This document shows positions 1,112 to 37,174 of a DNA stretch of 53,513 bases, one piece after another. The translations under genes were made by a program, and so were the position numbers. Position 1 is the stretch's first letter; each line of letters begins with the position of its first letter. The DNA lies in assembly GCA_029246505.1 (NCBI GenBank), contig JAQWNC010000020.1, positions 1-53,513 of the forward strand, read 5' to 3'. The notes beneath the pieces were generated by a model. That model was not told the origin of the DNA. It worked only from the letters and a program-made list of their open reading frames with translations, and searched no databases. This DNA comes from Arenicellaceae bacterium. Its GTDB lineage: Bacteria; Pseudomonadota; Gammaproteobacteria; Arenicellales; Arenicellaceae.

Positions 1112-2134
1112 ATGACTAAAGTCGCTGTAGTTGGTTTTGGCGTAATCGGGCAACGCTTGGCGGATGCAGTTGCCGCACAAGAAGATATGGAACTAGTCGG
1201 AATTGCCGATCTTGCCCCTACTATTACCCTACGTGCATTGGTTGAGCGAGGTATGCCTTATGACCTTTATTGCGCTGTTCCAGGCCAGGAACATAAGCTA
1301 GAAGATGCCGATATCCCGGTAACTGGTACGTTGGAAGAGCTTGTTCAAAAAGTCGATATCGTGTTGGATGCGACCAGCCCCGGTGTTGGCTCTAAAAATA
1401 AAGCCCTTTATGAAAAGCATGGTAAAAAAGCTATCTTTCAAGGTGGCGAGAAAAATGACATCGTTGATGTGTTTTTTCACGGCTATGCAAACTACCCAAA
1501 AGGCGTTAATGCTGATTTCCTGAAACTTACCTCCTGTAATACAACTGGTTTAATCAGAACAATTCACTGGCTAGACAAAGCGGTTGGGGTAAAAAAAGCG
1601 GCCATTACCATTATCCGCCGTGTTGCTGATCCGGGTGATACCTTCCGTGGCTTAACCAATAACCTGCAGATCGAACCTGTTCCTAACCATCAGGCAGTAG
1701 ACTTGATGACGATCATGCCACATGTCGACTGCACGGGAGTGTTAATCCACACGCCGGTAACGCACGGACACATCATCAGCATTGTTGCCAAAACGGAAAA
1801 AGACATCTCTCCAGAAGAAGCGATTGCTTTATTCAAAACACACCCGCGAATGAAGGTAGTTAAAATCGCTGATGGATTCGATTCCAATGGTGCTTTTTTC
1901 CGATACGCTCGCGACAAAGGCAATATGCGCGCTGACATGTATGAAGTTGGTCTTTGGGAAGAAACCGTCTCCAAGTCAGGTGATGACTTAATCTTCTCGA
2001 TAAACATCCCTCAAGAAGCTATTACTATCCCTGAAACAATCGATGGGATTCGAGCTGCGACAGGTATGCAGACCGATGGTAATGAGGCTGTTGCTTTGAC
2101 TAACAAATACCTAAACATGAGTGCCCCTAGCTAG
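1112..2134 (+). CDS. Type II (archaeal-type) glyceraldehyde-3-phosphate dehydrogenase
   Basis: The 340-residue product has an N-terminal Rossmann motif, VAVVGFGVIGQRLADAV, and a catalytic cysteine at about residue 142 in TSCNTTGL. The spacing and motifs are those of archaeal type II GAPDH rather than bacterial GapA, whose site reads SCTTN. The enzyme interconverts glyceraldehyde 3-phosphate and 1,3-bisphosphoglycerate with NAD(P), and archaeal members often prefer NADP. The ATG at 1112 follows AGGAG at a good distance. A phosphoglycerate kinase of archaeal type begins 27 bp after the stop, so the two successive steps sit in one transcription unit. The protein is full length with no missing core motif. 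The family is secure; direction and cofactor preference are not visible. Confidence 0.92.
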   Translation: MTKVAVVGFGVIGQRLADAVAAQEDMELVGIADLAPTITLRALVERGMPYDLYCAVPGQEHKLEDADIPVTGTLEELVQKVDIVLDATSPGVGSKNKALYEKHGKKAIFQGGEKNDIVDVFFHGYANYPKGVNADFLKLTSCNTTGLIRTIHWLDKAVGVKKAAITIIRRVADPGDTFRGLTNNLQIEPVPNHQAVDLMTIMPHVDCTGVLIHTPVTHGHIISIVAKTEKDISPEEAIALFKTHPRMKVVKIADGFDSNGAFFRYARDKGNMRADMYEVGLWEETVSKSGDDLIFSINIPQEAITIPETIDGIRAATGMQTDGNEAVALTNKYLNMSAPS

Positions 2135-2161
2135 CCATGGTGACTGATAGATTACTAAGAG

Positions 2162-3400
2162 ATGAATGATATTAGTAAAATTCGTTCGATTGACGAAGGA
2201 GCGTTCGCTGGCAAGCGAGTACTCCTTCGCGTCGACATAAATTGCCCTATTGATAAACAAACAGGCCAGATTGCTAACGATAACCGTATCGTCAAAAGCA
2301 TTCCAACTATTCGGGATTTATTGGACAAAGGTGCTCGGCTTGCTATTATTGCGCATCAAGGGGACACAACAGATTACTCCTCGCTGATTAGCTTGAGCGA
2401 ACATGCAGAACGATTGAGTGCCGCACTTGGAAAGCCTGTTGATTTTATCGAAGATGTAGCTGGCCCAGCTGCGGTAGACAAAATTATGATGCTTGGCGAT
2501 GGTGAAGCACTGCTACTCGATAACTTGCGTTATCTCACAGAAGAAGTATCAACTTTTGAAGATAGCGTCACGCAAGACCCTGCCGATATGGGTAATAGTT
2601 ATTTAGTGCGTAGACTAGCGCCAGTTTTTGACTGCTATGTGAATGACGCCTTTGCAGCCGCTCACAGAAACTCCCCTTCAATGGTCGCATTTCAAGAGTT
2701 ACTGCCATCTCATGCTGGTCGATTATTAATGCAGGAACTTGCTGCGTTGCAATCGATTACCGATTCCCCGGCCAAACCCTGCATTTATTTGCTTGGCGGC
2801 TCGCGTGCCGGTGATGCCTTTGGCATGATCGATCAGGTATTGAAAGATGGTTCCGCCGACCAACTTCTTTTGAGCGGCCTAGTGGGTCAAATTTTCATGA
2901 TGGCCGATGATATTGATATAGGTAAATCTTCTGCCGGTTTTATCCGTCACAAAGGCTTCGAGCAATACATTGCTTCAGCCAAAAAGTTTCTTAATAATTA
3001 TCGTAATAAAATCTCGTACGCCAGTGATGTCGCTGTAGAAGTCGACGGGAAACGACATAATGTGACGGTAACTGAAGTAGCTGATGATCAGGATATTTCT
3101 GATATCGGGGACCAAACAATTGAAGATTACGTAGCTGCCATCGCCGCAGCAAAAACTATATTTGTAAATGGCCCCGCTGGAATATACGAAAGCGAACTGT
3201 TTGAAAAAGGTACCAAATCACTCTGGAATGCAGTCGCAGATTCAGAAGGATTCTCAGTAATCGGGGGCGGTGACTCAGTTACTTCGTTTGCTAAATACAC
3301 TGAGCTCTCGAAACTGAACTACGTTTCAACCGCCGGTGGTGCGTTGATCCAGTATTTGTCAGGTATTCGATTACCATTACTGGAAGCAATATCTAAATAG
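2162..3400 (+). CDS. Archaeal-type phosphoglycerate kinase
   Basis: The 412-residue product carries PGK signatures in order: RVDINCPID near residue 24; IAHQGD, where most bacterial enzymes have SHLGRP; DNLRYLTEE; CYVNDAFAAAHRNSPS; GGSRAGDAFGMI; and C-terminal VIGGGDSVTSFAKY with YVSTAGGALIQYLSG. The AHQG and NDAFAAAHR forms are typical of archaeal PGK. It transfers phosphate between 1,3-bisphosphoglycerate and ADP. The gene follows the GAPDH by 27 bp on the same strand, so the two likely act consecutively. GGSRAGDA differs from the usual GGAKVxDK/DA loop, with Arg where Lys is common, so the nucleotide-site chemistry deserves checking. Confidence 0.9.
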   Translation: MNDISKIRSIDEGAFAGKRVLLRVDINCPIDKQTGQIANDNRIVKSIPTIRDLLDKGARLAIIAHQGDTTDYSSLISLSEHAERLSAALGKPVDFIEDVAGPAAVDKIMMLGDGEALLLDNLRYLTEEVSTFEDSVTQDPADMGNSYLVRRLAPVFDCYVNDAFAAAHRNSPSMVAFQELLPSHAGRLLMQELAALQSITDSPAKPCIYLLGGSRAGDAFGMIDQVLKDGSADQLLLSGLVGQIFMMADDIDIGKSSAGFIRHKGFEQYIASAKKFLNNYRNKISYASDVAVEVDGKRHNVTVTEVADDQDISDIGDQTIEDYVAAIAAAKTIFVNGPAGIYESELFEKGTKSLWNAVADSEGFSVIGGGDSVTSFAKYTELSKLNYVSTAGGALIQYLSGIRLPLLEAISK

Positions 3401-3441
3401 TAATTATAGGCTTGGCCTGCCCCAAACTAATCGAATAAGTT

Positions 3442-4302
3442 ATGAGCTTTACTGGCAGTAAACACTATATTTCAACCGATGATTTAAGTTTGGCGGTAAA
3501 TTCTGCTGTTGTTTTAGAGCGTCCATTACTTATTAAAGGCGAACCCGGCACGGGTAAAACAATGCTCGCGGAAGAAGTAGCAGGTGCCCTAAACAAACAA
3601 CTCATCACCTGGCATATAAAATCTACCACTAAAGCCCAGCAAGGACTGTATGAATACGATGCGGTATCTCGCTTACGCGATTCGCAACTGGGAAAAGCAA
3701 ATATCAACAATATCGAGAATTACATTAAAAAAGGCAAACTTTGGGAAGCCTTCATCTCCGATCAACAAGTCGTATTGCTCATCGATGAAATAGATAAAGC
3801 AGATATAGAGTTCCCCAACGATCTTCTAGTTGAGATCGACAAAATGGAATTTTTTGTCTATGAAACCGGAAAAACCATTCATGCCAAGCATCGGCCAATC
3901 ATCATAATCACGAGTAATAACGAGAAGGAACTACCTGACGCATTTTTGCGTCGCTGCTTTTTCCATTTTATAAAATTTCCAGATCGGGAAACTATGGAAG
4001 CGATCATTGCCGTGCACCATCCAAATACGAAAAAGGAACTGCTAAGCGAGGCGCTAGACGTATTTTTCCAAATTCGGGATATTCCTGGCATCAAAAAAAA
4101 ACCTTCAACTTCTGAGCTGATCGACTGGCTGAAACTACTACTCGCTGACGATATCCGCGGCACCGAGCTCAGTGACAAAAATACCGAGCAAAACTTACCC
4201 CCGCTTTACGGCGCACTATTAAAAAACGAACAGGATATAAATTTGCTAGAGCGCTTGGCCGTTGCGCAACAGAAAAACCAACAAATAACGCTGCAACCTT
4301 GA
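3442..4302 (+). CDS. MoxR-family AAA+ ATPase
   Basis: The 286-residue protein has Walker A GEPGTGKT at residues 33-40, Walker B VVLLIDE at 110-116, and a sensor-1 region IIITSNNEKELPDAFLRRC that includes the arginine-rich segment. This is the MoxR/CbbQ/NorQ layout. Such ATPases work with a VWA partner to remodel or insert metal or ligand into a client enzyme, and the next gene (4366) is a VWA protein. It starts 41 bp after the PGK gene with no other promoter evident, so co-transcription with GAPDH and PGK is likely. The client is unknown; from position, one of the two glycolytic enzymes is a candidate. Confidence 0.88.
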   Translation: MSFTGSKHYISTDDLSLAVNSAVVLERPLLIKGEPGTGKTMLAEEVAGALNKQLITWHIKSTTKAQQGLYEYDAVSRLRDSQLGKANINNIENYIKKGKLWEAFISDQQVVLLIDEIDKADIEFPNDLLVEIDKMEFFVYETGKTIHAKHRPIIIITSNNEKELPDAFLRRCFFHFIKFPDRETMEAIIAVHHPNTKKELLSEALDVFFQIRDIPGIKKKPSTSELIDWLKLLLADDIRGTELSDKNTEQNLPPLYGALLKNEQDINLLERLAVAQQKNQQITLQP

Positions 4303-4365
4303 TCAAAGTTTGTACCGTATTGGTAATAGCTAATCGAATGGTAAACAGCTCGATTTTCGTAGAAC

Positions 4366-5541
4366 ATGCTGCTTGATTTTTTTGAGAGCCTCCGCGGCCA
4401 GGGTTTGCCAGTTACCTTTCGCGAATTGTCTGACCTTATTTCCGCTCTTGAACAGCATCTTGTATTTGTAGATATAGACAAGTTTTACTATTTAAGTCGC
4501 ACCTGCATGATCAAAGATGAAAAACACTTTGATAAGTTCGATCTAGCATTTAAGTCTCATTTTTCTGAGTTAGATAAAATTGATAACTTATTCGACAAAC
4601 TCCCGGATTTAGAATTGCTCAAGTATAGTTCCCTGCAAAACCAGGTAACGGAAGCAAATGATGGCGACAATAATTTTGGCTCCTTACGCGGCCTAGCCGA
4701 CACCTGGGATAAAGGCTCAGATGAGCCCTACGACGGATACTTTGGTCGCAACAAGGGCGTAGGAACCGCGGGCACATCTTTTTCTGGGAATACGAATGCG
4801 AACTCGCACGCAAGTTCAACGAGCAGTACCGATATAGGTGAAGGAACAGTCAAACCATGGGACCACCGTTACTTCAAAGATTTGGACGGCAGCCGGCAAC
4901 TTGGTACCCGCAATATAAAAATGGCTTTGCGAAGACTGCGTCGATTCGCGCGCAGTGGTGCCAACGAAGAGTTCGATCTGCATGAAACTATTCGGGCAAC
5001 CGCAAAAGATGCGGGCTTACTCAACATCAAAATGCGACCAGAGCGCCACAACTCAGTAAAAATTCTTTTACTATTTGATATTGGTGGATCGATGGATGCC
5101 CACACCCGAACCTGCGAACAACTATTCAGCGCGGCCCGATCTGAATTTAAGTATATGGAATACTTTTATTTCCATAACTTTATCTACGATTCTTTGTGGC
5201 AGAACTACGACATGAAACACGGAGAACTTATTTCTACATTCGACTTATTGCATAAATATGCATCAGACTACAAAGTCATCATTGTTGGCGATGCAGCAAT
5301 CGGAACCCATGAAATCACTCGACCCGGCGGGAGTGTTGACTTCCCAAACAGCGAACCCGGCGCTAACTGGTTAAATAGGTTTACTGATCAATATGATAAA
5401 GTGGTCTGGTTGAACCCGGAACCGAATACCTACTGGCACTACAGCGAATCTACAAGGATGATTCAAAAACTAATGCACGAGCGAATGTACCCAATGACAC
5501 TCAATGGAATCGAAAAAGCCATGATCTACCTGAGCCGTTAA
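4366..5541 (+). CDS. VWA domain protein, CoxE-like partner of the MoxR ATPase
   Basis: The 391-residue protein has a helical N-terminal region (about 1-90), a low-complexity Gly/Ser/Asn linker around residues 125-165, and a C-terminal von Willebrand A domain starting ILLLFDIGGSMD near residue 237. The metal-site motif is D-I-G-G-S rather than the standard DxSxS, so one serine ligand is replaced by glycine. My recollection is that this variant recurs in CoxE-like partners of MoxR ATPases. The gene lies 63 bp downstream of the MoxR gene. Together they look like a chaperone or activator pair. No signal peptide or membrane segment is visible, so the protein should be cytosolic. Confidence 0.85.
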   Translation: MLLDFFESLRGQGLPVTFRELSDLISALEQHLVFVDIDKFYYLSRTCMIKDEKHFDKFDLAFKSHFSELDKIDNLFDKLPDLELLKYSSLQNQVTEANDGDNNFGSLRGLADTWDKGSDEPYDGYFGRNKGVGTAGTSFSGNTNANSHASSTSSTDIGEGTVKPWDHRYFKDLDGSRQLGTRNIKMALRRLRRFARSGANEEFDLHETIRATAKDAGLLNIKMRPERHNSVKILLLFDIGGSMDAHTRTCEQLFSAARSEFKYMEYFYFHNFIYDSLWQNYDMKHGELISTFDLLHKYASDYKVIIVGDAAIGTHEITRPGGSVDFPNSEPGANWLNRFTDQYDKVVWLNPEPNTYWHYSESTRMIQKLMHERMYPMTLNGIEKAMIYLSR

Positions 5542-5561
5542 CCGATATGTATATAAATACT

Positions 5562-6525
5562 ATGAATATACGAATCTCCATACTCGCACTTCTTCTTTTC
5601 TCATCAGCTGCCAATGCTCATCACTCGCGATTCTATTTTTCTAATGAGCTTTCTCAAGTAAAGGGTACAATTTTGTAAATGGATTGGCGAAATCCGCATA
5701 TTAGGTTCAACTTATAAACTGAAAATAGTGCTGGCGAACAGGCAGTTTTACGCATTGAAACTAACTCTATTTATTACCTTAAACGTGCCGGCGTTACAAA
5801 AAATCATATTAAAGTAGGTGATGAAGTAACTGTTAGTGGCTACGCTTCAATAAAGGCCGGTGGGGAATTTTTAGGCGCAGAATTGTTGCTACCAAATGGT
5901 GAAAACTTACTATTGATACGAAATGGAGTAACCACTCGGTTTAACAATACAATTTAAAATACAGTTGAAGAAAAACAAAGGGATTTACCGCGTATGGAGC
6001 ATCCCTCAGGACAAAAATCGAAAAATGCACACACCTCTTACGGCTGCGGCAGAAGCTAAGATGAAAGTATTAGATCTATTAGATAATTTCGCTACCCGAT
6101 GTGAACCAAGTGGAATGCCAAGACTCATGTGGTGTCGACATCCATACGAGTTTGAAAGTTTAGATAATCAAATTATTCTACGCACCGAAATGTATAACGC
6201 TGTCAGAACTATACATATGGATAGATCAACACCACCAAACGGTGAAGCTCATTCGCGTTTGGAGTATTCAGTGGGCTGCTGGGAGGGAGAGACTTTGGTC
6301 GTTAACACAAGCCTTCTTAATTGGGACTACTACGATACTCGAGGTATCCCTCAAAGTGAGGCAGCTGAAGTGGTTGAGCGCTATACCATAAGTCAAAATC
6401 GAAGCCGACTAGGTTATTTTATAACTACTACTGACATTGAAACCTTGACCGAGCCGGCCACTATTAAAGGGCATTGGCGCGCACTAGGTGAGAGCATTAA
6501 GCCTTACAATTATGAAGTTTTTTGA
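5562..6525 (+). pseudogene. Broken DUF6152-family exported protein
   Basis: From ATG 5562 the frame encodes a signal peptide ending SSAANA, then HHSRFYFS, the typical DUF6152 start (compare AHHGSSPYDS in the intact gene at 36056). It is interrupted by TAA at 5676-5678, 5715-5717 and 5955-5957. Similarity resumes across each of the first two stops (KGTIL, then MDWRNPHIRFNL). After 5955 the homology shifts by one base and continues as an open 186-codon frame with WEGETLVVNTSLLNW and RGIPQSE, the family's C-terminal motifs. The downstream frame has only a TTG at 5965 and no signal peptide, so separate function is unlikely. This is a former secreted protein gene now inactivated. Confidence 0.85.
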
Positions 6526-23467: not shown

Positions 23468-25135
23468 CTATAAAATGCTAGGTAAGTTTAGCCCGTGTTC
23501 TTTCGCGCATTCAATCGCCGCTTCGTACCCAGCATCAGCATGACGCATTACACCAGTTGCTGGATCGTTCCATAGAACACGGCTCAAGCGTCGAGCTGAA
23601 TCTTCAGTCCCATCAGCTAAAATCACCAGACCCGAGTGTTGCGAGAAACCCATTCCAACACCACCACCATGATGCAGGCTAACCCAAGTTGCACCACTAG
23701 CGGTGTTAAGCAAAGCATTCAAAAGTGGCCAATCAGAAACAGCACTCGATCCATCCTTCATTGATTCTGTTTCACGATTAGGACTTGCAACAGAACCGCT
23801 ATCAAGATGATCGCGGCCAATAACAATAGGAGCACTTAACTCACCATGCTTAACCATTTCGTTAAAGGCCAGAGCCAAGCGATGCCTATCACCCAAACCT
23901 ACCCAACAGATGCGTGCTGGCAAACCTTGGAACTCAATCCGTTCGCGAGCCAAATCCAACCATCTATGAAGATGCTGATCATCAGGAAGTAATTCTTTAA
24001 CTTTCTGATCAGTTTTATAAATATCTTCAGGGTCCCCAGACAATGCTACCCAACGAAATGGGCCTATGCCGTGACAAAATAAAGGGCGGATGTAGGCGGG
24101 AACAAAGCCAGGGAAATCGAAAGCATTTTCAAGGCCCTCATCAAATGCGACCTGACGAATATTGTTCCCGTAATCAAGTGTAGGAATACCTTGATTCCAA
24201 AAATCGAGCATCGCTTGAACATGTATTTTCATTGAAGCACGTGATGCCTTAGTTACTTCTTGGGGAGCAAACACTCGCTTATTTTCCCATTCTGCTAGCG
24301 TCCAGCCTTGCGGTAAATAGCCATTCAATGGATCGTGCGCCGACGTTTGATCAGTCACAATATCGGGACGAACTCCACGCTTCACTAATTCTGGAAAAAT
24401 ATCGGCAGCATTCGCACATAGCCCTACTGTCTTAGCTTGACCAGCTTTTGTCCACTCATCGATCATCGCTAAAGCTTCGTCTAACGAATTTGCTTTTTCA
24501 TCCAGATAGCGTGTGCGCAATCGAAAATCGATACTTTCAGGATTACACTCAATGGCGAGACAGCAAGCGCCGGCCATTGCTGCGGCCAGTGGCTGAGCGC
24601 CTCCCATGCCACCCAAGCCTGCTGTTAGAATCCATTTTCCGGTTAGGTCACCGTTAAAGTGCTGTCGACCTGCTTCTATAAATGTCTCAAAGGTACCTTG
24701 AACGATTCCCTGAGTACCAATATAAATCCAGGAACCAGCTGTCATCTGACCAAACATCATCAGACCTTTTTGATCTAGTTCGTTAAAGTGATCCCAATTC
24801 GCCCAATGTGGCACTAGGTTCGAATTCGCTATTAGCACTCTAGGCGCATCTTTATGCGTGCGGAACACACCAACTGGCTTACCCGACTGCACCAATAGTG
24901 TTTCATCTTCATTCAGCTGTTTTAAAGTTTCTAGAATCGCATCGAAATCTTTCCACGTTCTTGCTGCCTTGCCAATTCCACCATATACAACTAGCTCGTC
25001 TGGGTTTTCCGCAACCTCCCGATCCAGATTATTTTGAATCATTCTAAACGGAGCCTCAGTCGCCCACGATTTACAGGATAGCTTATTGCCTCGTGGGCTT
25101 TTGATGTCGCGCTTACCGCTTAAAGGTTTATTCAT
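23468..25135 (-). CDS. hutU: Urocanate hydratase
   Basis: The 555-residue protein is of normal length for HutU, with the NAD-binding and active-site landmarks of the family: [74 protein letters not shown] and [15 protein letters not shown]. It converts urocanate to 4-imidazolone-5-propanoate, the second step of histidine breakdown. It is the last gene of hutIHGU, with its ATG overlapping the hutG stop (ATGA). A cytosolic enzyme with no unusual features. Confidence 0.98.
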
Positions 25136-25944
25136 AATGAATCTCCAGATGAATGCTCAAGAATTATGGTATTAATTTCATGAAGAATTTCAGACAATAG
25201 GCTTCGTAAAGATAATGCTTTTTTTTCATCGTAGTCAAAAGGGACACGTTCGCTCCGTAGATAGGCCCGCTGCGCTAGTTCCATTTGAACCGCATGCACG
25301 CCCACTTTAGGTTTACCATAGTGGCGTGTCGTCCACCCGCCTCTAAATCGGCCATTAACTACATGGGTATGACTCTTAATGTTTTGGCAAATGTTTTGAA
25401 TGCCAGCCGTAATCTCGCTCGCGCATGATTTACCGCTGTTGTCGCCTATATTCAAATCCGGTAAAAGATTGTCGAATAAATACGGTATCTCTGACCGAAT
25501 CGAGTGGCAATCATATACAAGCGCAATACCATGTATTGACTTCACACGCGCTATTTCTTCGTTCAAAAGTTGGTGGTATTCACGGTGGTAAATTTGAAGT
25601 CGCTGTTGAATATCATCTGCCGTTGGCTCGGTTTTCCAAATAGGCTCACCATCAAAAGTAGTAAACGGAACTAAGCCAGTAGAATTTTGACCTGGGTATA
25701 AATTGGTACCTTGTGGGTCACGATTTGGATCAATCACATAACGACTAAAATTTGCTTTCACAACCGTAACGTTATCTAACAACCCTTCGTAAAGCTGTGG
25801 AACGTGCCAGTCGGTATCCGATAGCTGTCGACCCAGCTCATTTAAATCTGTAAATATTTCATCCGGGACAAAGGTTCCAGAATGTGGCTGGCCCAATATT
25901 ATTGGGCAAGACCCCTGAGTCACATCAACAAGATTTATGTTCAT
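25132..25944 (-). CDS. hutG: N-formylglutamate deformylase
   Basis: Starting at ATG 25944 (270 residues) it overlaps the hutH stop as ATGA; a longer frame to 25980 is the shadow of hutH. Motifs include [50 protein letters not shown] and [19 protein letters not shown], the N-formylglutamate amidohydrolase family with its zinc-binding H/E residues. It hydrolyses N-formylglutamate to glutamate and formate, the last step of the HutF-dependent route. HutF at 28755 makes its substrate, so both branches are present and complete. Confidence 0.96.
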
Positions 25945-27473
25945 ATATCCAGCGCAGCGACACCGTCTCCAAGAACACAAAGCTCATCGCTTTCATGAAC
26001 TAATTCAGCCAATTTAACAATGTCTACACTCACCATTCTATCGTCCACCAACGATGGGCAATGCTTACGAATCTTAGAAACAACCTTCTTTAGACGGTCA
26101 CTGGTTTGAAGAGGTGCTCGAAGCTCAATGCCCTGAGACCCAGCCATAGATTCAATTCCAAGAATGGCAGATAGATTTTTATTCATCTCTAGTAATCTAC
26201 GTGCTGCATGGCAAGCCATTGAGACATGATCCTCCTGGTTTGCCGAAGTGGGTGTGGAGTCAATTGACCGAGGGTTAGCAAGCGCTTTGTTTTCACTCAT
26301 TAGCGCTGCGGATGTAACTTCAGCAATCATCAAACCAGACTTCAGTCCTGGGCCAGGTGCTAAAAATGCGGGAAGGCCAAAACTTAAAGAAGGATCTACT
26401 AACAGTGCGATTCTACGTTGAGCGATACAGCCAATTTCAGAGATGGCAATTGCAATCTGGTCCGCGGCTAACGCAACTGGTTCAGCATGAAAATTGCCTC
26501 CCGAGATAATGCTTCCATCTGACAGAATAAGCGGGTTATCAGTCGCGGCATTTGCTTCAATTCGTAAGGTCTCACCAGCCTGCTGTAATTGATCCATGCA
26601 TGCTCCGATAACCTGTGGCGCACATCGCAAGCAGTAAGGGTCTTGCACTCGTTCGTCGCCAACTTGATGACTTTCTAGAATTTCAGATCCTTGAAGTAAC
26701 TCACGAAGCCTTTTTGCACTATCAATTTGACCTCGATGCCCACGCAACTGATGAATTTCATCATGAAATGGTGCACTCGACCCCATTGCCGCATCTATTG
26801 AAAGGGCCGTGGTTGTGATCGATGTTATAGCTAAGCGCCACGCGCCAAAAAGACCAGCCAATGCAAGCGCCGTAGACACCTGTGTTCCGTTCAGCAAAGC
26901 AAGCCCTTCTTTCGCCTGTAGTACAATTGATTTCAATCCCGCTAACTCAAGCGCCTTAGACGATAGTACTTTTTCACCCTTATAAAATACTTCACCTTCG
27001 CCAATTAATGCAGCCGCCATATGAGCTAATGGTGCCAGATCACCCGAAGCACCCACTGAACCTTGGGCAGGAATAACCGGAATAATATCCGCTTCGACCA
27101 TGGCCTGTAGTAGTTCAATCACTACCTCCCTGACACCGGATGCACCTCGACCGAGTGACAAGCACTTTAAAACCATAACCAAGCGAACGATATTACGCGG
27201 TAAAGGCTCACCAAAACCGGCACAATGAGAACGCACTAGATTACGTTGCAGGCTGACCAGGTTTTCGTCGTCGATTCGAACAGAGGCCAGTTTACCGAAA
27301 CCTGTATTCACACCATAAATAATCTCATTACTCTTGATCCTATCAACAAGTCTGGACTCCCCCACTCTTACCGCATCAAGAGACTCTGGGGTTAGCTCGA
27401 ACCTAACTTTGTCTCGATAAATGGTTTCAAGTTGTGCTAGCGTTGTTCGACCTGGAGCAAGAATCATCGTCAT
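25941..27473 (-). CDS. hutH: Histidine ammonia-lyase
   Basis: The 510-residue enzyme has the MIO-forming motif in [19 protein letters not shown] (ASG at about residue 143-145), [13 protein letters not shown] near the N-terminus, [15 protein letters not shown], and C-terminal [15 protein letters not shown]. It removes ammonia from histidine to give urocanate. Its ATG (27473) overlaps the hutI stop and its own stop overlaps hutG, both as ATGA, so it is strictly coupled within hutIHGU. Full length and apparently active. Confidence 0.98.
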
Positions 27474-28684
27474 GACGTTTCCCCATGAGAAATACGTTTA
27501 TGAAATTTGGAGGGACCAACCCAATAGGATAATTCAGCTGGGTGTTGTACATTCCATACAGCGAGTTCGGCAAGCGCACCATCCTCAATAACACCGTAAT
27601 CACCTTGCAGACCAAGCGCTTGAGCAGCACATCGCGTGGTGCCTGCAAGTGCTTCTTCCGGCGTCATAGAAAATTGCGTACACGCAATATTCATGGCCGT
27701 CAGAATTGATGAAATGGGTGAGCTACCGGGATTACAATCTGTTGCAATAGCCATCTCAACACCCGTAGAACGAAAAACATTTATTGGGGGAATTTTGGAT
27801 TCTCGAAGTGTGTAGAACGCGCCAGGCAACATGACCGCAACGGCACCAGATTCAGCAAACTTTGGAACATCGTCTACTGATAAATATTCTAGGTGGTCAG
27901 CAGAAAGACCGGCGTATTTACCGACAAGCAACGCACCTTTTTGATCCGATAATTGTTCTGCGTGTAATTTGACGGGTAAACCCAAAGAGTGAGCTACTTC
28001 GAACAAGCGCTCAATTTGAGCTGGGGAAAATCCGATCGTTTCGCAAAAACCGTCGACTGCATCTACTAATCCTTCTTCCGCGGCCTGCTGTAAACCCAGA
28101 ATCGCTACTTCGTTAATATAATCATCGGGTTTATCTTCGTACTCCACTGGCAATGCGTGCGCGGCCAGCCAGGTTGTCAAAATTTTCACCGGCCTTAAAG
28201 ATTCCAACTTTCGTGCAACTCGAAGCATGCGGATTTCATCAGCGATAGTTAAGCCATAACCAGATTTTATTTCCACGACAGCAACGCCTTCACTAATAAG
28301 ATCATCTAACCTTGTTATCGCGCTTTGAAGTAATTCTTTATCGCTGGCTAACCGAGTCGCTCTAACCGTAGAAACTATACCGCTACCCGCTTTTGAAATT
28401 TCTTCATAGCTTGCGCCGTTCAGGCGCATTTCAAATTCGCTGGCTCGATTACCACCAAACACGAGGTGTGTATGACAATCAATTAACGCGGGGGTTATTA
28501 AACGCTGCCCCAAAGACTCGTTTGAATAATTACTATATTGCGCTGGCAAACCCTGAGCGTCACCTACCCAGGCAATACGACCATTGCGAACAACAATCGC
28601 TCCATTTTCAATAAGGCCATATTCAGGTTTGCCCGAATGCATTGTAGCCACTCTGCATTCGGTATAAAGTACTTCGCGTTGCAT
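27470..28684 (-). CDS. hutI: Imidazolonepropionase
   Basis: The 404-residue amidohydrolase has metal-site motifs [52 protein letters not shown] and [13 protein letters not shown]. It opens imidazolone propanoate to formimidoylglutamate (histidine pathway step 3). It is the first gene of the minus-strand hut operon, its ATG 70 bp from hutF on the opposite strand. The palindrome at 28713-28740 lies between the two start codons and is a good repressor site. Confidence 0.97.
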
Positions 28685-28712
28685 AAGTGTTGTCTAATTT
28701 ACTTAGTATGAT

Positions 28713-28740
28713 ATTATATTATGTATGCACATATTATAAT
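28713..28740. promoter_or_regulatory. Candidate HutC operator between hutI and hutF
   Basis: A 28-base near-perfect palindrome: arms ATTATA / TATAAT outside and TATGT / ACATA inside around a four-base centre ATGC. It overlaps the only space for the divergent hut promoters. HutC-type GntR regulators bind TGTATA-like palindromes (established), and hutC is encoded at 30122. Confidence 0.6.
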
Positions 28741-28754
28741 TAGATTACGTTTTT

Positions 28755-30125
28755 ATGGCAACAAAAATTTTTGCAAAACAGGCCTTAACTGGCTCAGGGT
28801 GGCAAGAAAATGTCGCAGTAACTATTGATGACAATGGATGTATCTCCAATATTACTGAAGCAACCGGTAATGAAAATGAAAAAGTAGGTATTCTTCTACC
28901 CGCCCTTTCAAATCTGCACAGCCATGCTTTTCAGAGAGCAATGGCCGGATTGGCAGAAAAACAAGGGCCAAATTCATTTGATGATTTTTGGACATGGCGG
29001 AAAGTCATGTATCGCTTTCTAGAGATCCTAACACCTGATGACATCGAAGTGATTGCAACACAGGTGCAAATGGAAATGCTCGAGTCGGGATATGCAGCAT
29101 CTGCTGAATTTCACTATTTGCACCACGCCCACAATGGCACTCTTTACGACAACATCAGCGAACTCTCAGAACGACTGTTTCAAGCATCACTAACGTCAGG
29201 TATTGGCTATACGCATCTACCAGTCCTTTATATGCGCGGCGGCCTAGATGACAGAGATTTACACGGCGGCCAGCTTCGCTTTAGATGCAATCTAGATCAA
29301 TTCCAAAATTTATATGCATCGCTTAAAGCACGCATGACTGAACTACCAAGTGATTATGTCCTTGGTGTTGCTCCGCATTCACTTAGAGCGGTAACAAAAG
29401 AAGGATTATTTCTGGCGAGCACTCTAGACAAAAACACGCCCATTCATATACATATCGCAGAGCAGCAAGGTGAAGTAAATGAGGTTGTTCAAGCATTAGG
29501 AGAAAGACCAGTCCGCTGGATCTTAAATGAATTTGACGTTGATGAGCGATGGTGCTTTATACACGCAACACACACAGATAATTTAGAACTAATAGACTTC
29601 GCCAAATCAGGTGCAATCGCTGGCTTGTGCCCTATTACTGAGGCAAATTTAGGCGACGGAATATTTGATGCGCGTAAGTTTTTTAACAATGGCGGTCGAT
29701 ATGGTGTTGGCTCCGATTCAAATGTCAGGGTTGGCCTCAGTGAAGAACTCCGTATGCTTGAAGTATCTCAACGCTTACGAGACCAACGACGCGTTGTTCT
29801 TAGCAGTGACACGACACCTTCCAATGGCCGTTTTCTTTATGAACGAGCCGCTCTTGGCGGCGCGCAAGCGCTAGCGCGAAATTCAGGTGTTATAAAAGTT
29901 GGCGCACTTGCCGATCTGGTCGCACTAGACGACGAACATTACTCGCTTTCTGGCTTATCTAATGACACCATTCTGGATACTTGGATATTTGCTTGCGGCG
30001 ATGAAATCGTCCTCGACGTTTGGGCAGCTGGTAGACACATGGTTCGCAATGGCAAGCATATTCTGCGTGATAATATAACCAGAAAATTTCACCAAACCAT
30101 ATACCGATTACGAAATGAGCTATGA
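28755..30125 (+). CDS. hutF: Formimidoylglutamate deiminase
   Basis: The 456-residue amidohydrolase-type protein contains NLHSHAFQRAMAGLAEKQG, SAEFHYLHHAHNG, VLGVAPHSLRAVTKEGL, IHIHIAEQQGEVNEV, GLCPITEANLGDGIF and RYGVGSDSNVRVGL, which are HutF motifs with the metal-binding His and Asp residues. It converts formimidoylglutamate to formylglutamate plus ammonia, feeding HutG. Presence of HutF/HutG indicates the five-step route, not direct formamide release by formiminoglutamase. Its stop overlaps hutC as ATGA. Confidence 0.97.
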   Translation: MATKIFAKQALTGSGWQENVAVTIDDNGCISNITEATGNENEKVGILLPALSNLHSHAFQRAMAGLAEKQGPNSFDDFWTWRKVMYRFLEILTPDDIEVIATQVQMEMLESGYAASAEFHYLHHAHNGTLYDNISELSERLFQASLTSGIGYTHLPVLYMRGGLDDRDLHGGQLRFRCNLDQFQNLYASLKARMTELPSDYVLGVAPHSLRAVTKEGLFLASTLDKNTPIHIHIAEQQGEVNEVVQALGERPVRWILNEFDVDERWCFIHATHTDNLELIDFAKSGAIAGLCPITEANLGDGIFDARKFFNNGGRYGVGSDSNVRVGLSEELRMLEVSQRLRDQRRVVLSSDTTPSNGRFLYERAALGGAQALARNSGVIKVGALADLVALDDEHYSLSGLSNDTILDTWIFACGDEIVLDVWAAGRHMVRNGKHILRDNITRKFHQTIYRLRNEL

Positions 30126-30814
30126 CAGCTAACTCACACCATAATATTAGGCAGGTACTAAGAGAGCGTATCGAGTCCGGCGAGTGGGCGCTCGGCGCAC
30201 TTATCCCTGGCGAGTTAGCTCTTGCTGTCGAATATAGGTGTGCACGAACGACAATTAATCGCGCTCTTCAAACACTAGCTGATGAAGGTTTAGTTGTCCG
30301 AAAGCGAAAAGGGGGGACAAGGGTATGTCAAATGCCGGTTCGTCATGCAAAGTTCGAAATCCCCATTGTGCGAGAACAAGTTGAAGTTATTGGCAGCAAG
30401 TATCGTCACCAAATAATGTCACAACAGAAAAAAACACCGACGGCTTCAGTTCGTACCCGATTACGTATCCCCGACGCTAAAAAAGCCCTATTTATGGAAA
30501 CAATCCATTTAGCAGATGAGCGTCCTTATGCTTACGAGGAGCGCTGGGTAAATATTCAAGCGGTTCCGAAGATTATGGATGCTCCGCTAGATCAAATAAG
30601 TGTCAATGAGTGGTTAGTTAAAACCGTTCCGTTCTCAAGTGGTGACGTCGTTTTCTCAGCGGTGAATGCAGACAAAAGGGTCGCCGGAGCACTTGAAAGC
30701 AAAGTCGGTAATGCAATTTTTTTAGTAGATAGAACCACCTGGTTAGGGGAAGAATTCATCACCACAATAAAACTCTATTACAGAGATGGCTACCAGCTCT
30801 ATTCACAGCTATAG
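30122..30814 (+). CDS. hutC: Histidine utilisation repressor, GntR/HutC family
   Basis: The 230-residue regulator has an N-terminal winged-helix GntR domain (LRERIESGEWALGALIPGE, ARTTINRALQTLADEGLVV) and a C-terminal UTRA effector domain (TASVRTRLRIPDAKKALFME, LADERPYAYEERWVNI). HutC proteins repress hut genes and respond to urocanate. It is translated from an ATGA overlap with hutF. The palindrome at 28713-28740 is the probable target. The family call is secure. Confidence 0.95.
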   Translation: MTANSHHNIRQVLRERIESGEWALGALIPGELALAVEYRCARTTINRALQTLADEGLVVRKRKGGTRVCQMPVRHAKFEIPIVREQVEVIGSKYRHQIMSQQKKTPTASVRTRLRIPDAKKALFMETIHLADERPYAYEERWVNIQAVPKIMDAPLDQISVNEWLVKTVPFSSGDVVFSAVNADKRVAGALESKVGNAIFLVDRTTWLGEEFITTIKLYYRDGYQLYSQL

Positions 30815-36055: not shown

Positions 36056-37174
36056 ATGAACCGCAATTTAGCAAAAATAATTCTCGCTACAATAAACCTA
36101 CTGGTGGTCACAACAGCAACGGCACATCATGGCTCTTCCCCCTATGACAGCACCTCAAGTAAAACTATGGTTGGAACTGTAACTGACTTTCGATTTTCTA
36201 ATCCTCATGTGTTGATTTATTTTGATGTATTACAAGACAACGGCGAAATAGTTAATTGGTCTGGTGAATTAACAAGCCCAAACCGACTCGCCAGAGCTGC
36301 GGGTGGCGCTGGGGGTAACGTCAAATGGAGTAGAGATATCTTGCTTCCTGGAGATAGAATCGAGCTTAGCGGTAACCCAGCGCGTAATGGGGCTCCCTCT
36401 ATACGTCTTCGTCAAGTTATTGATGCTAATGGTACAACTCTGGTAGGCGGAGATAGTAGGACACCAACCTCAACTCCAGTAGCTCGACTCGAGTCAGAAT
36501 CGATTATTTCCTCCGCTAATGATAGGGCCAGAGACCTATCCGGTGTCTGGATGCGTTCAGATAATGAACCCTACTCTAACTATGCCTTTAGTGCTGAATT
36601 GCCGCCAATGACAGATTGGGCAATAAATAAATATAAAGCTGCAAAACCAACATTTGGTGAAAATGGTGTGACGGTAGCTGACAGCAATGACCCTATTTAC
36701 CAATGCCTCCCACCAGGTACGCCGCGTATTTATTTTCATCCACGCCCTTTCGAAATAATCCACACTCCAGGACGCATACTAATCAGTTACGAATACCAGC
36801 AACTACTTCGCGCCATATACACCGACGGTCGCCCTCACCGGAATGACCTTGCCCCAACATGGATGGGTGACTCTACCGGGCATTGGGAGGGCGATACACT
36901 GGTCGTCGAATCAGTCAATTTCAATGACAATACCTGGGTTGACCGCCGTGGCATCCCTCATAGCGATCAATTGCGAGTAGAAGAACGCTTCTATCGTAAT
37001 GGCAATGGTCAATTAATTATCGACATTACAGTAAATGACCCAATAGCCTTCACTGAACCATGGACTGGTCGAAAAACTTTCAAGGCCGTTTCGTGGACAA
37101 TCGAAGAGTTTGTCTGCTTAGATAGCTTGTCATTTGAAGAGTTCGAAGAAGCCCTATTAGAGTATGACAAATAA
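36056..37174 (+). CDS. Exported DUF6152-family protein
   Basis: The 372-residue protein starts with a signal peptide ending TTATAHHG and the family start AHHGSSPYDSTSS. It continues MVGTVTDFRFSNPHVLIYF, ELTSPNRLARAAGGAGG, GDRIELSGNPARNG and a C-terminal domain with WEGDTLVVESVNFNDNTWVD and RRGIPHSDQLRVEERF. The N-terminal third resembles an OB-like fold domain; the rest is specific to this family, which is abundant and uncharacterised in marine gammaproteobacteria. A broken paralogue lies at 5562-6525. The ATG follows AAGGGGATCAAA. Function unknown. Confidence 0.88.
   Translation: MNRNLAKIILATINLLVVTTATAHHGSSPYDSTSSKTMVGTVTDFRFSNPHVLIYFDVLQDNGEIVNWSGELTSPNRLARAAGGAGGNVKWSRDILLPGDRIELSGNPARNGAPSIRLRQVIDANGTTLVGGDSRTPTSTPVARLESESIISSANDRARDLSGVWMRSDNEPYSNYAFSAELPPMTDWAINKYKAAKPTFGENGVTVADSNDPIYQCLPPGTPRIYFHPRPFEIIHTPGRILISYEYQQLLRAIYTDGRPHRNDLAPTWMGDSTGHWEGDTLVVESVNFNDNTWVDRRGIPHSDQLRVEERFYRNGNGQLIIDITVNDPIAFTEPWTGRKTFKAVSWTIEEFVCLDSLSFEEFEEALLEYDK

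Follow-up and report, generated by a model that had tools for sequence, protein, structure and literature searches.

What are genes for an archaeal-type glyceraldehyde-3-phosphate dehydrogenase (GAPDH) and an archaeal-type phosphoglycerate kinase (PGK) doing next to a MoxR-VWA gene pair in a bacterial chromosome? The question is raised by a stretch of 53,513 nucleotides from an Arenicellaceae bacterium (assembly GCA_029246505.1, contig JAQWNC010000020.1), here called the window, which is part of contig C27 of a host genome (G000) of 2.64 Mb and 97.5% completeness. Four open reading frames (ORFs), for a type II GAPDH-like dehydrogenase, a PGK-like kinase, a MoxR-type ATPase and a CoxE-like VWA protein, follow one another on the + strand with gaps of 27, 41 and 63 bp (Table 1), and ORF calls and family models reproduce their positions, order and gaps as first reported in a preliminary description of this DNA. 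The best explanation of the locus as a whole, to which we give slightly better than even chances, is that the dehydrogenase and the kinase, like the subfamily to which they belong, form a malate-forming two-enzyme module and that the MoxR-VWA pair is independent of it.

The dehydrogenase scores above both NCBIfam cut-offs for type II GAPDH (NF003251, 387.7 bits against 185; TIGR01546, 283.3 bits against 232.9), and the kinase matches the PGK family PF00162 with 359.4 bits (cut-off 27). The top-scoring solved structures are 1cf2 for the dehydrogenase and 2cun for the kinase, both of which we take to be archaeal, and the GAPDH and PGK motifs quoted in the preliminary description are found in the two proteins. 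Related loci were collected by scanning genomes with a profile built from six sequences, and the best 80 of at least 467 confirmed relatives were kept; counts out of 80 refer to this set, and organisms were read from record titles. By title, all of these best 80 are bacterial. Dehydrogenase identity among them is 89% for Arenicella, 80% for Porticoccaceae and 60-67% for the remainder, which include Clostridium, Lucifera, Treponema and Chloroflexi. The kinase gene is present in 73 of the 80 loci, and wherever both ORFs were called (52 loci) they lie on the same strand, in 47 cases no more than 150 bp apart.

Quick maximum-likelihood trees with SH-aLRT support, each containing four archaeal sequences, place the window kinase inside a clade of 33 bacterial rows (SH-aLRT 97) and the window dehydrogenase in a clade of 60 (SH-aLRT 100), apart from four archaeal and four plasmid-type enzymes; long branches meet in the dehydrogenase tree, which is a warning sign. 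The window, Arenicella and Porticoccaceae sequences form one clade in both trees (SH-aLRT 100). With one clade in both trees and adjacent genes, the two window proteins belong, almost certainly, to a bacterial subfamily, whose dehydrogenases and kinases are labelled F0 and F1 in this analysis. The archaeal character of the PGK, as described before, goes beyond chance, since the F1 kinases and the four archaeal PGKs are split from eight bacterial PGKs (SH-aLRT 100); the archaeal four are not a monophyletic group. Judged from its sequences, the pair is archaeal in lineage, and its visible relatives are bacterial. At E≤1e-30, type II GAPDH occurs in two of the 109 genomes of the order, namely the window genome and the Arenicella genome G374, and in two of 369 genomes of the class, the second being only 35% identical, so Gammaproteobacteria very rarely carry the pair. 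Of the transferred archaeal module envisaged in the preliminary description, the archaeal-type descent, the movement of the two genes as a unit and the rarity in Gammaproteobacteria stand. The direct archaeal source does not: both enzymes fall inside bacterial clades, which had been named beforehand as a refuting outcome, and direct transfer from archaea was rejected with all of the best 80 of at least 467 loci bacterial by title and four archaeal rows per tree.

The pair often has inositol genes as neighbours in Clostridia, spirochaetes and Chloroflexi, together with genes for a split transketolase, malic enzyme and a nickel-dependent malate racemase. Among the 80 loci, LarA-like genes were counted in 37, the transketolase halves TktN and TktC in 30 each, malic enzyme in 28, IolD in 21, and IolB and IolE in 16 each. 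A scan of the 92 other ORFs of 11 inositol-gene loci returned 11 IolD, 11 KduI/IolB, 10 transketolase N, 10 transketolase C, four malic enzyme and three Lar proteins, and IolG-like genes also occur in the inositol-type clusters. PfkB, class II aldolase and aldehyde dehydrogenase were not among the 25 commonest of the 32 Pfam families in these 92 neighbours. A whole-genome search of 16 genomes found IolD above cut-off in eight, all of which had been reached through a locus carrying the F0-F1 pair. IolC was above its cut-off of 300 bits in none of the 16, and weaker PfkB-type matches, of up to 223 bits, were present in all of them.

The LarA-like neighbours resemble a malate racemase. The one in Acetobacterium matches the NCBIfam model of the nickel-dependent malate racemase LarAH6 with 574.8 bits (cut-off 500), and the lactate racemase model with 367 bits, below the cut-off of 460. 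Altogether, 25 of 32 full-length LarA-like neighbours match the LarAH6 model at E≤1e-150; of ten members scanned singly, seven lie above the LarAH6 cut-off and three below it, while the lactate racemase model stayed under its cut-off in all of those scanned singly. In the published study, LarAH6, or Mar2, is active on malate alone among seven tabulated activities, and malic enzyme neighbours had hinted at malate as its substrate (PMC7583248). Inositol, glyceraldehyde and transketolase do not come up in the main text of that study (PMC7583248).

In the chemistry proposed here, the pair would retain reactions of the GAPDH/PGK type, from an aldehyde, phosphate and NAD+ to an acyl phosphate and on to ATP, because the catalytic residues are kept. 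In Clostridia-type clusters, IolG-IolE-IolD-IolB would produce 2-deoxy-5-keto-D-gluconate (DKG), which without IolC could not follow its usual route. By Fischer-projection reasoning, DKG (HOCH2-CO-CHOH-CHOH-CH2-COO-, D-threo) would be an isostere of xylulose-5-phosphate, with the carboxylate in the place of the phosphate. Transketolase would cleave it to (R)-3-hydroxy-4-oxobutanoate, the carboxylate isostere of D-glyceraldehyde-3-phosphate, and the F0-F1 pair would take this aldehyde as its substrate instead of glyceraldehyde-3-phosphate and convert it to D-malate, with formation of NADH and ATP. A D-malate product would need a D-malate outlet; a LarAH6-type malate racemase would supply L-malate, and malic enzyme would turn malate into pyruvate, with IolC and IolJ bypassed. 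A course from malate, perhaps the D form, through a LarA racemase to L-malate and on to malic enzyme had been drafted before the NCBIfam racemase scans, at a time when the genes were known as LarA-like and malic enzyme by eye.

The canonical inositol pathway (IolG-E-D-B-C-J-A) is similar in the IolD, IolB, IolE and IolG-like genes of the clusters but uses IolC, the enzyme that stays below cut-off throughout the 16 genomes. Sulfo-transketolase sugar degradation is also similar in that transketolase cuts an isostere of a sugar phosphate; the isostere there is a sulfonate, whereas the proposed route employs a carboxylate and continues with GAPDH- and PGK-like steps. A transketolase route for inositol was not found in the titles and abstract beginnings listed by searches of the open-licence literature. 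From the sequences and gene contexts, malate chemistry of the pair appears likely in the inositol clusters. With somewhat less assurance, we favour the wider proposal that many anaerobic bacteria use carboxylate counterparts of lower pentose-phosphate and glycolytic steps, in which transketolase and the look-alikes of GAPDH and PGK, each adapted from a sugar phosphate to its isosteric carboxylate, lead from inositol-derived DKG to D-malate, and that a branch of this module entered marine Gammaproteobacteria.

The dehydrogenase keeps Cys142 and His220, which align with the catalytic residues of archaeal enzymes, and archaeal type II GAPDHs (1cf2, 2czc, 2yyy, 1b7g) are like it in fold family, in SCNTT with the catalytic Cys, in RRxxD and in the catalytic His. 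They form a separate clade (SH-aLRT 100), however, and around the catalytic His they have TLMHxH where the F0 subfamily has THGHII, with changes elsewhere too. Asp33 occupies, in 60 of 60 subfamily rows, the position of a Lys found in all four archaeal enzymes, an exchange that suggests a preference for NAD+ over NADP+.

The 3-phosphoglycerate site of PGK is made up of D, N, R, H, the R of HxGR, R and R, and in PGK structures the HxGR Arg helps to hold the phosphate of 3-phosphoglycerate. Six other residues of the site are kept in F1 (D25, N27, R42, H65, R123, R169). At the HxGR Arg position, however, all 59 F1 kinases have Asp, Ser or Gly, and all seven comparison PGKs have Arg or Lys. The window kinase likewise has the six but not the full set, its residue at the HxGR Arg position being Asp68, a point absent from the preliminary description; a phosphate-free substrate would permit such a loss of the Arg. 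Archaeal PGKs (2cun and three haloarchaeal plasmid PGKs) share its side of the PGK tree and the HQG motif; they differ in having Arg or Lys at the HxGR position instead of the Asp, Ser or Gly of F1, which also has an invariant Tyr72. Both Asp68 and Tyr72 are kept in the window kinase. Three exchanges are common to it and its Arenicella and Porticoccaceae counterparts: Arg215 replaces Lys, Ser74 replaces Asn and Ala287 replaces Pro.

Table 1. Positions of the four genes and of two diagnostic codons in the window
Feature	Position	Strand	Length or basis
Type II GAPDH-like dehydrogenase, bacterial subfamily F0	1112-2134	+	340 aa
Catalytic cysteine codon, Cys142 in SCNTTG	1535-1537	+	sequence, invariant in alignment with archaeal enzymes
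Archaeal-lineage PGK-like kinase, bacterial subfamily F1	2162-3400	+	412 aa
Asp68 codon at the HxGR position of the PGK-like kinase	2363-2365	+	alignment of F1 members
MoxR-type AAA+ ATPase, partner of the VWA protein	3442-4302	+	286 aa; AAA family matches
CoxE-like VWA protein, partner of the MoxR ATPase	4366-5541	+	391 aa; VWA_CoxE match

A probable member of the subfamily has been assayed. The type II GAPDH of Pseudoclostridium thermosuccinogenes was inactive with NAD+ and with NADP+, and its authors wrote in 2019 that functional evidence for a bacterial class II GAPDH was not known to them (PMC6543838). According to the printed primers, the protein has VKVGV close to its start and ends in MGKWK (PMC6543838). 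These ends resemble the F0 subfamily (TNKYLGLGKWK), unlike the archaeal and plasmid rows compared and, judged from the primer-encoded ends alone, the enzyme is probably an F0 member.

Several observations weigh against malate formation, in the subfamily or in the window. Twenty-four of the 80 loci, some of them on short contigs, carry none of LarA, malic enzyme, transketolase, IolD, IolB and IolE, and these 24 include the loci nearest to the window (L056 and L057) and a third gammaproteobacterial locus, L098. Seven of the 32 LarA-like neighbours miss E=1e-150 with the LarAH6 model. Racemase and malic enzyme are not independent signs either, because LarAH6 was singled out partly through its malic enzyme neighbours, as the study indicates (PMC7583248). 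Lipoamide dehydrogenase without transketolase is found in seven loci (L058, L085, L088, L095, L101, L111 and L113), and these give no ketol-cutting enzyme; transketolase (31 loci) and lipoamide dehydrogenase (seven loci) occur together in none of the 80. The window kinase has Arg where 55 of 59 members have Lys (position 215) and Ser where, again, 55 of 59 have Asn (position 74), and since it thereby departs from the subfamily majority its activity may differ. The genome search found neither a LarA match nor IolD above cut-off in the window genome, nor in G374, G385, the L057 genome or the L098 genome. The negative assay of the Pseudoclostridium enzyme, finally, could reflect poor folding.

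At L088, the only one of the seven lipoamide dehydrogenase loci scanned, E1 and E2 genes stand beside the lipoamide dehydrogenase gene and score best as pyruvate dehydrogenase; the complex may use pyruvate from malic enzyme, or it may cut the ketol. Given this best score of the L088 subunits, the idea that such an E1-E2-lipoamide dehydrogenase complex offers a further way of cutting the ketol was not counted as support.

A different aldehyde, such as erythrose-4-phosphate or malonate semialdehyde, might be the substrate of the pair, at least in the window, where the branch is divergent (Arg215, Ser74, Phe178) and the genome is without LarA and without IolD above cut-off; the malate racemase and malic enzyme of the related clusters indicate malate instead, and we regard this alternative as unlikely. 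No iol genes, transketolase, malate racemase or malic enzyme were seen near the window pair, which is a gammaproteobacterial offshoot without inositol genes that probably keeps a non-glycolytic substrate. Malate chemistry in the window itself is put a little short of even. In the region L098:312-9326 of a gammaproteobacterial metagenome-assembled genome, the pair is followed by an amidohydrolase gene (PF04909), and an upstream gene reads like a TRAP transporter; these neighbours are a lead to another substrate source.

A further alternative is that the two enzymes carry out the ordinary GAPDH and PGK reactions and took the place of a lost type I GapA in the window genome. This genome has no type I GAPDH above the TIGR01534 cut-off, which is exceeded in 12 of 14 genomes searched, and it retains a C-terminal fragment of a type I GAPDH with two in-frame stops (G000 C10:60054-60284, equal to L035:4055-4285); the conserved Cys142 and His220 would suit a working GAPDH as well. 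However, its only full-length GAPDH of the type I family, a long form on C17 in a frame of 500 amino acids, reaches 365.0 bits against a cut-off of 367.2, and there is a second, canonical PGK, so that the genome need not lack the glycolytic step. The pair, moreover, coexists with a type I GAPDH above cut-off in G374, the L057 genome and the L098 genome, whereas the same-genus genome G385 (88% complete) has neither a type II gene nor a type I gene above cut-off and only the long form. The kinase lacks the HxGR arginine, and the probable subfamily member from Pseudoclostridium showed no GAPDH activity in the published assay (PMC6543838). With no type I GAPDH above the cut-off and the long form just below it, the replacement idea stays alive but is not forced; we consider it improbable, and an ordinary glycolytic function of the pair doubtful. 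The loss of gapA from a tkt-gap-pgk operon was considered and rejected, as the type I gene of G374 (on C79) lies beside apparent zwf, pgl and edd genes, named by eye, while the 13 kb read around it showed no tkt, pgk, pyk or fba.

The MoxR-VWA genes would be part of the answer if their products activated or remodelled the dehydrogenase and the kinase, so that all four genes worked as one system, as the preliminary description had suggested. The common strand and the gaps of 27, 41 and 63 bp are in keeping with one system, and no terminator-like site lies in the gaps, although such sites are hit at chance level and are therefore uninformative either way. In Arenicella G374, by contrast, the dehydrogenase (89% identity) and kinase (75%) genes are adjacent and followed by a convergent gene, MoxR and VWA genes are absent from the 17.5 kb read around them, and the MoxR-VWA pair of that genome sits on a different contig. 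Neither MoxR nor VWA was found in any of the 80 best-scoring loci related to the window dehydrogenase, and the four-gene order, sought elsewhere, was seen only in the window, an outcome that had likewise been named beforehand as refuting.

The MoxR-VWA pair itself is spread more widely. Each of its genes occurs in 17 of 21 genomes of the family, the window genome included, and in 12 of the 13 of good quality, and the VWA gene occurs in 55 of 369 genomes of the class at E≤1e-40. Among 36 short VWA loci (about 4.2 kb), 33 have MoxR and none has GAPDH or PGK, and the same holds for ten longer VWA loci of the family (MoxR in ten, GAPDH or PGK in none); as seven of the longer loci are repeats, the two sets amount to 39 distinct VWA places outside the window, and GAPDH or PGK was present at none of the 39 within the stretch read. 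In nine of the ten longer loci, MoxR instead adjoins a gene of one family, whose scanned member is a 2OG-Fe(II) oxygenase by Pfam. Because the 39 other VWA places lack GAPDH and PGK and most keep MoxR, the MoxR-VWA genes are a separate pair that stands incidentally beside the GAPDH and PGK genes here, a conclusion held with high confidence, and the one-system explanation is very improbable. CbbQ/CbbO, RavA/ViaA and other MoxR-VWA pairs likewise consist of a MoxR ATPase adjoining a VWA protein, but a conserved linkage with the client gene is expected of CbbQO-like activators, and the linkage searches above found none for the window pair (0 of 80 loci, 0 of 39 VWA places). The VWA protein matched no solved structure at E≤0.1.

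If the malate-forming module is real, type II GAPDH and PGK annotations in many bacteria are misnamed, and the bacterial "archaeal" GAPDH and PGK gain a function. Gut and sediment anaerobes would then possess an inositol route without the IolC kinase or the IolJ aldolase, LarAH6 malate racemases would acquire a metabolic role, and a set of glycolytic enzymes would have been jointly re-used on isosteric substrates.

An origin of the pair in phages or plasmids was rejected, with matches that were distant or missing. Single-protein viral scans with the GAPDH and the MoxR, in which close relatives only are detectable, gave no match, and one phage record matched the window GAPDH with 34.2% identity. 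The highest identity of a plasmid GAPDH is 42.1% for a match spanning half the length and 37.8% for one that covers 98% of it, and the top plasmid PGK matches to the window kinase reach 33.7-34.7%. Plasmids carry another kind of type II GAPDH (37 plasmid records: L147, L148, L149 and 34 further ones). It is likewise a bacterial type II GAPDH, with Asp33 in the four rows compared, but it is 25.6-42.1% identical to that of the window, forms a separate clade (four rows) and has no adjoining PGK in the three regions read (L147, L148, L149), two of which contain heavy-metal P-type ATPases.

Directly after the VWA gene of the window, a decayed gene at 5547-6525 is interrupted by in-frame stops. It is related to the gene at 36056-37174, to which its best piece is 32% identical over 138 amino acids. 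Further along, at 23468-30814, the window carries an apparently full hut (histidine-use) cluster with its regulator, named by eye from the translations.

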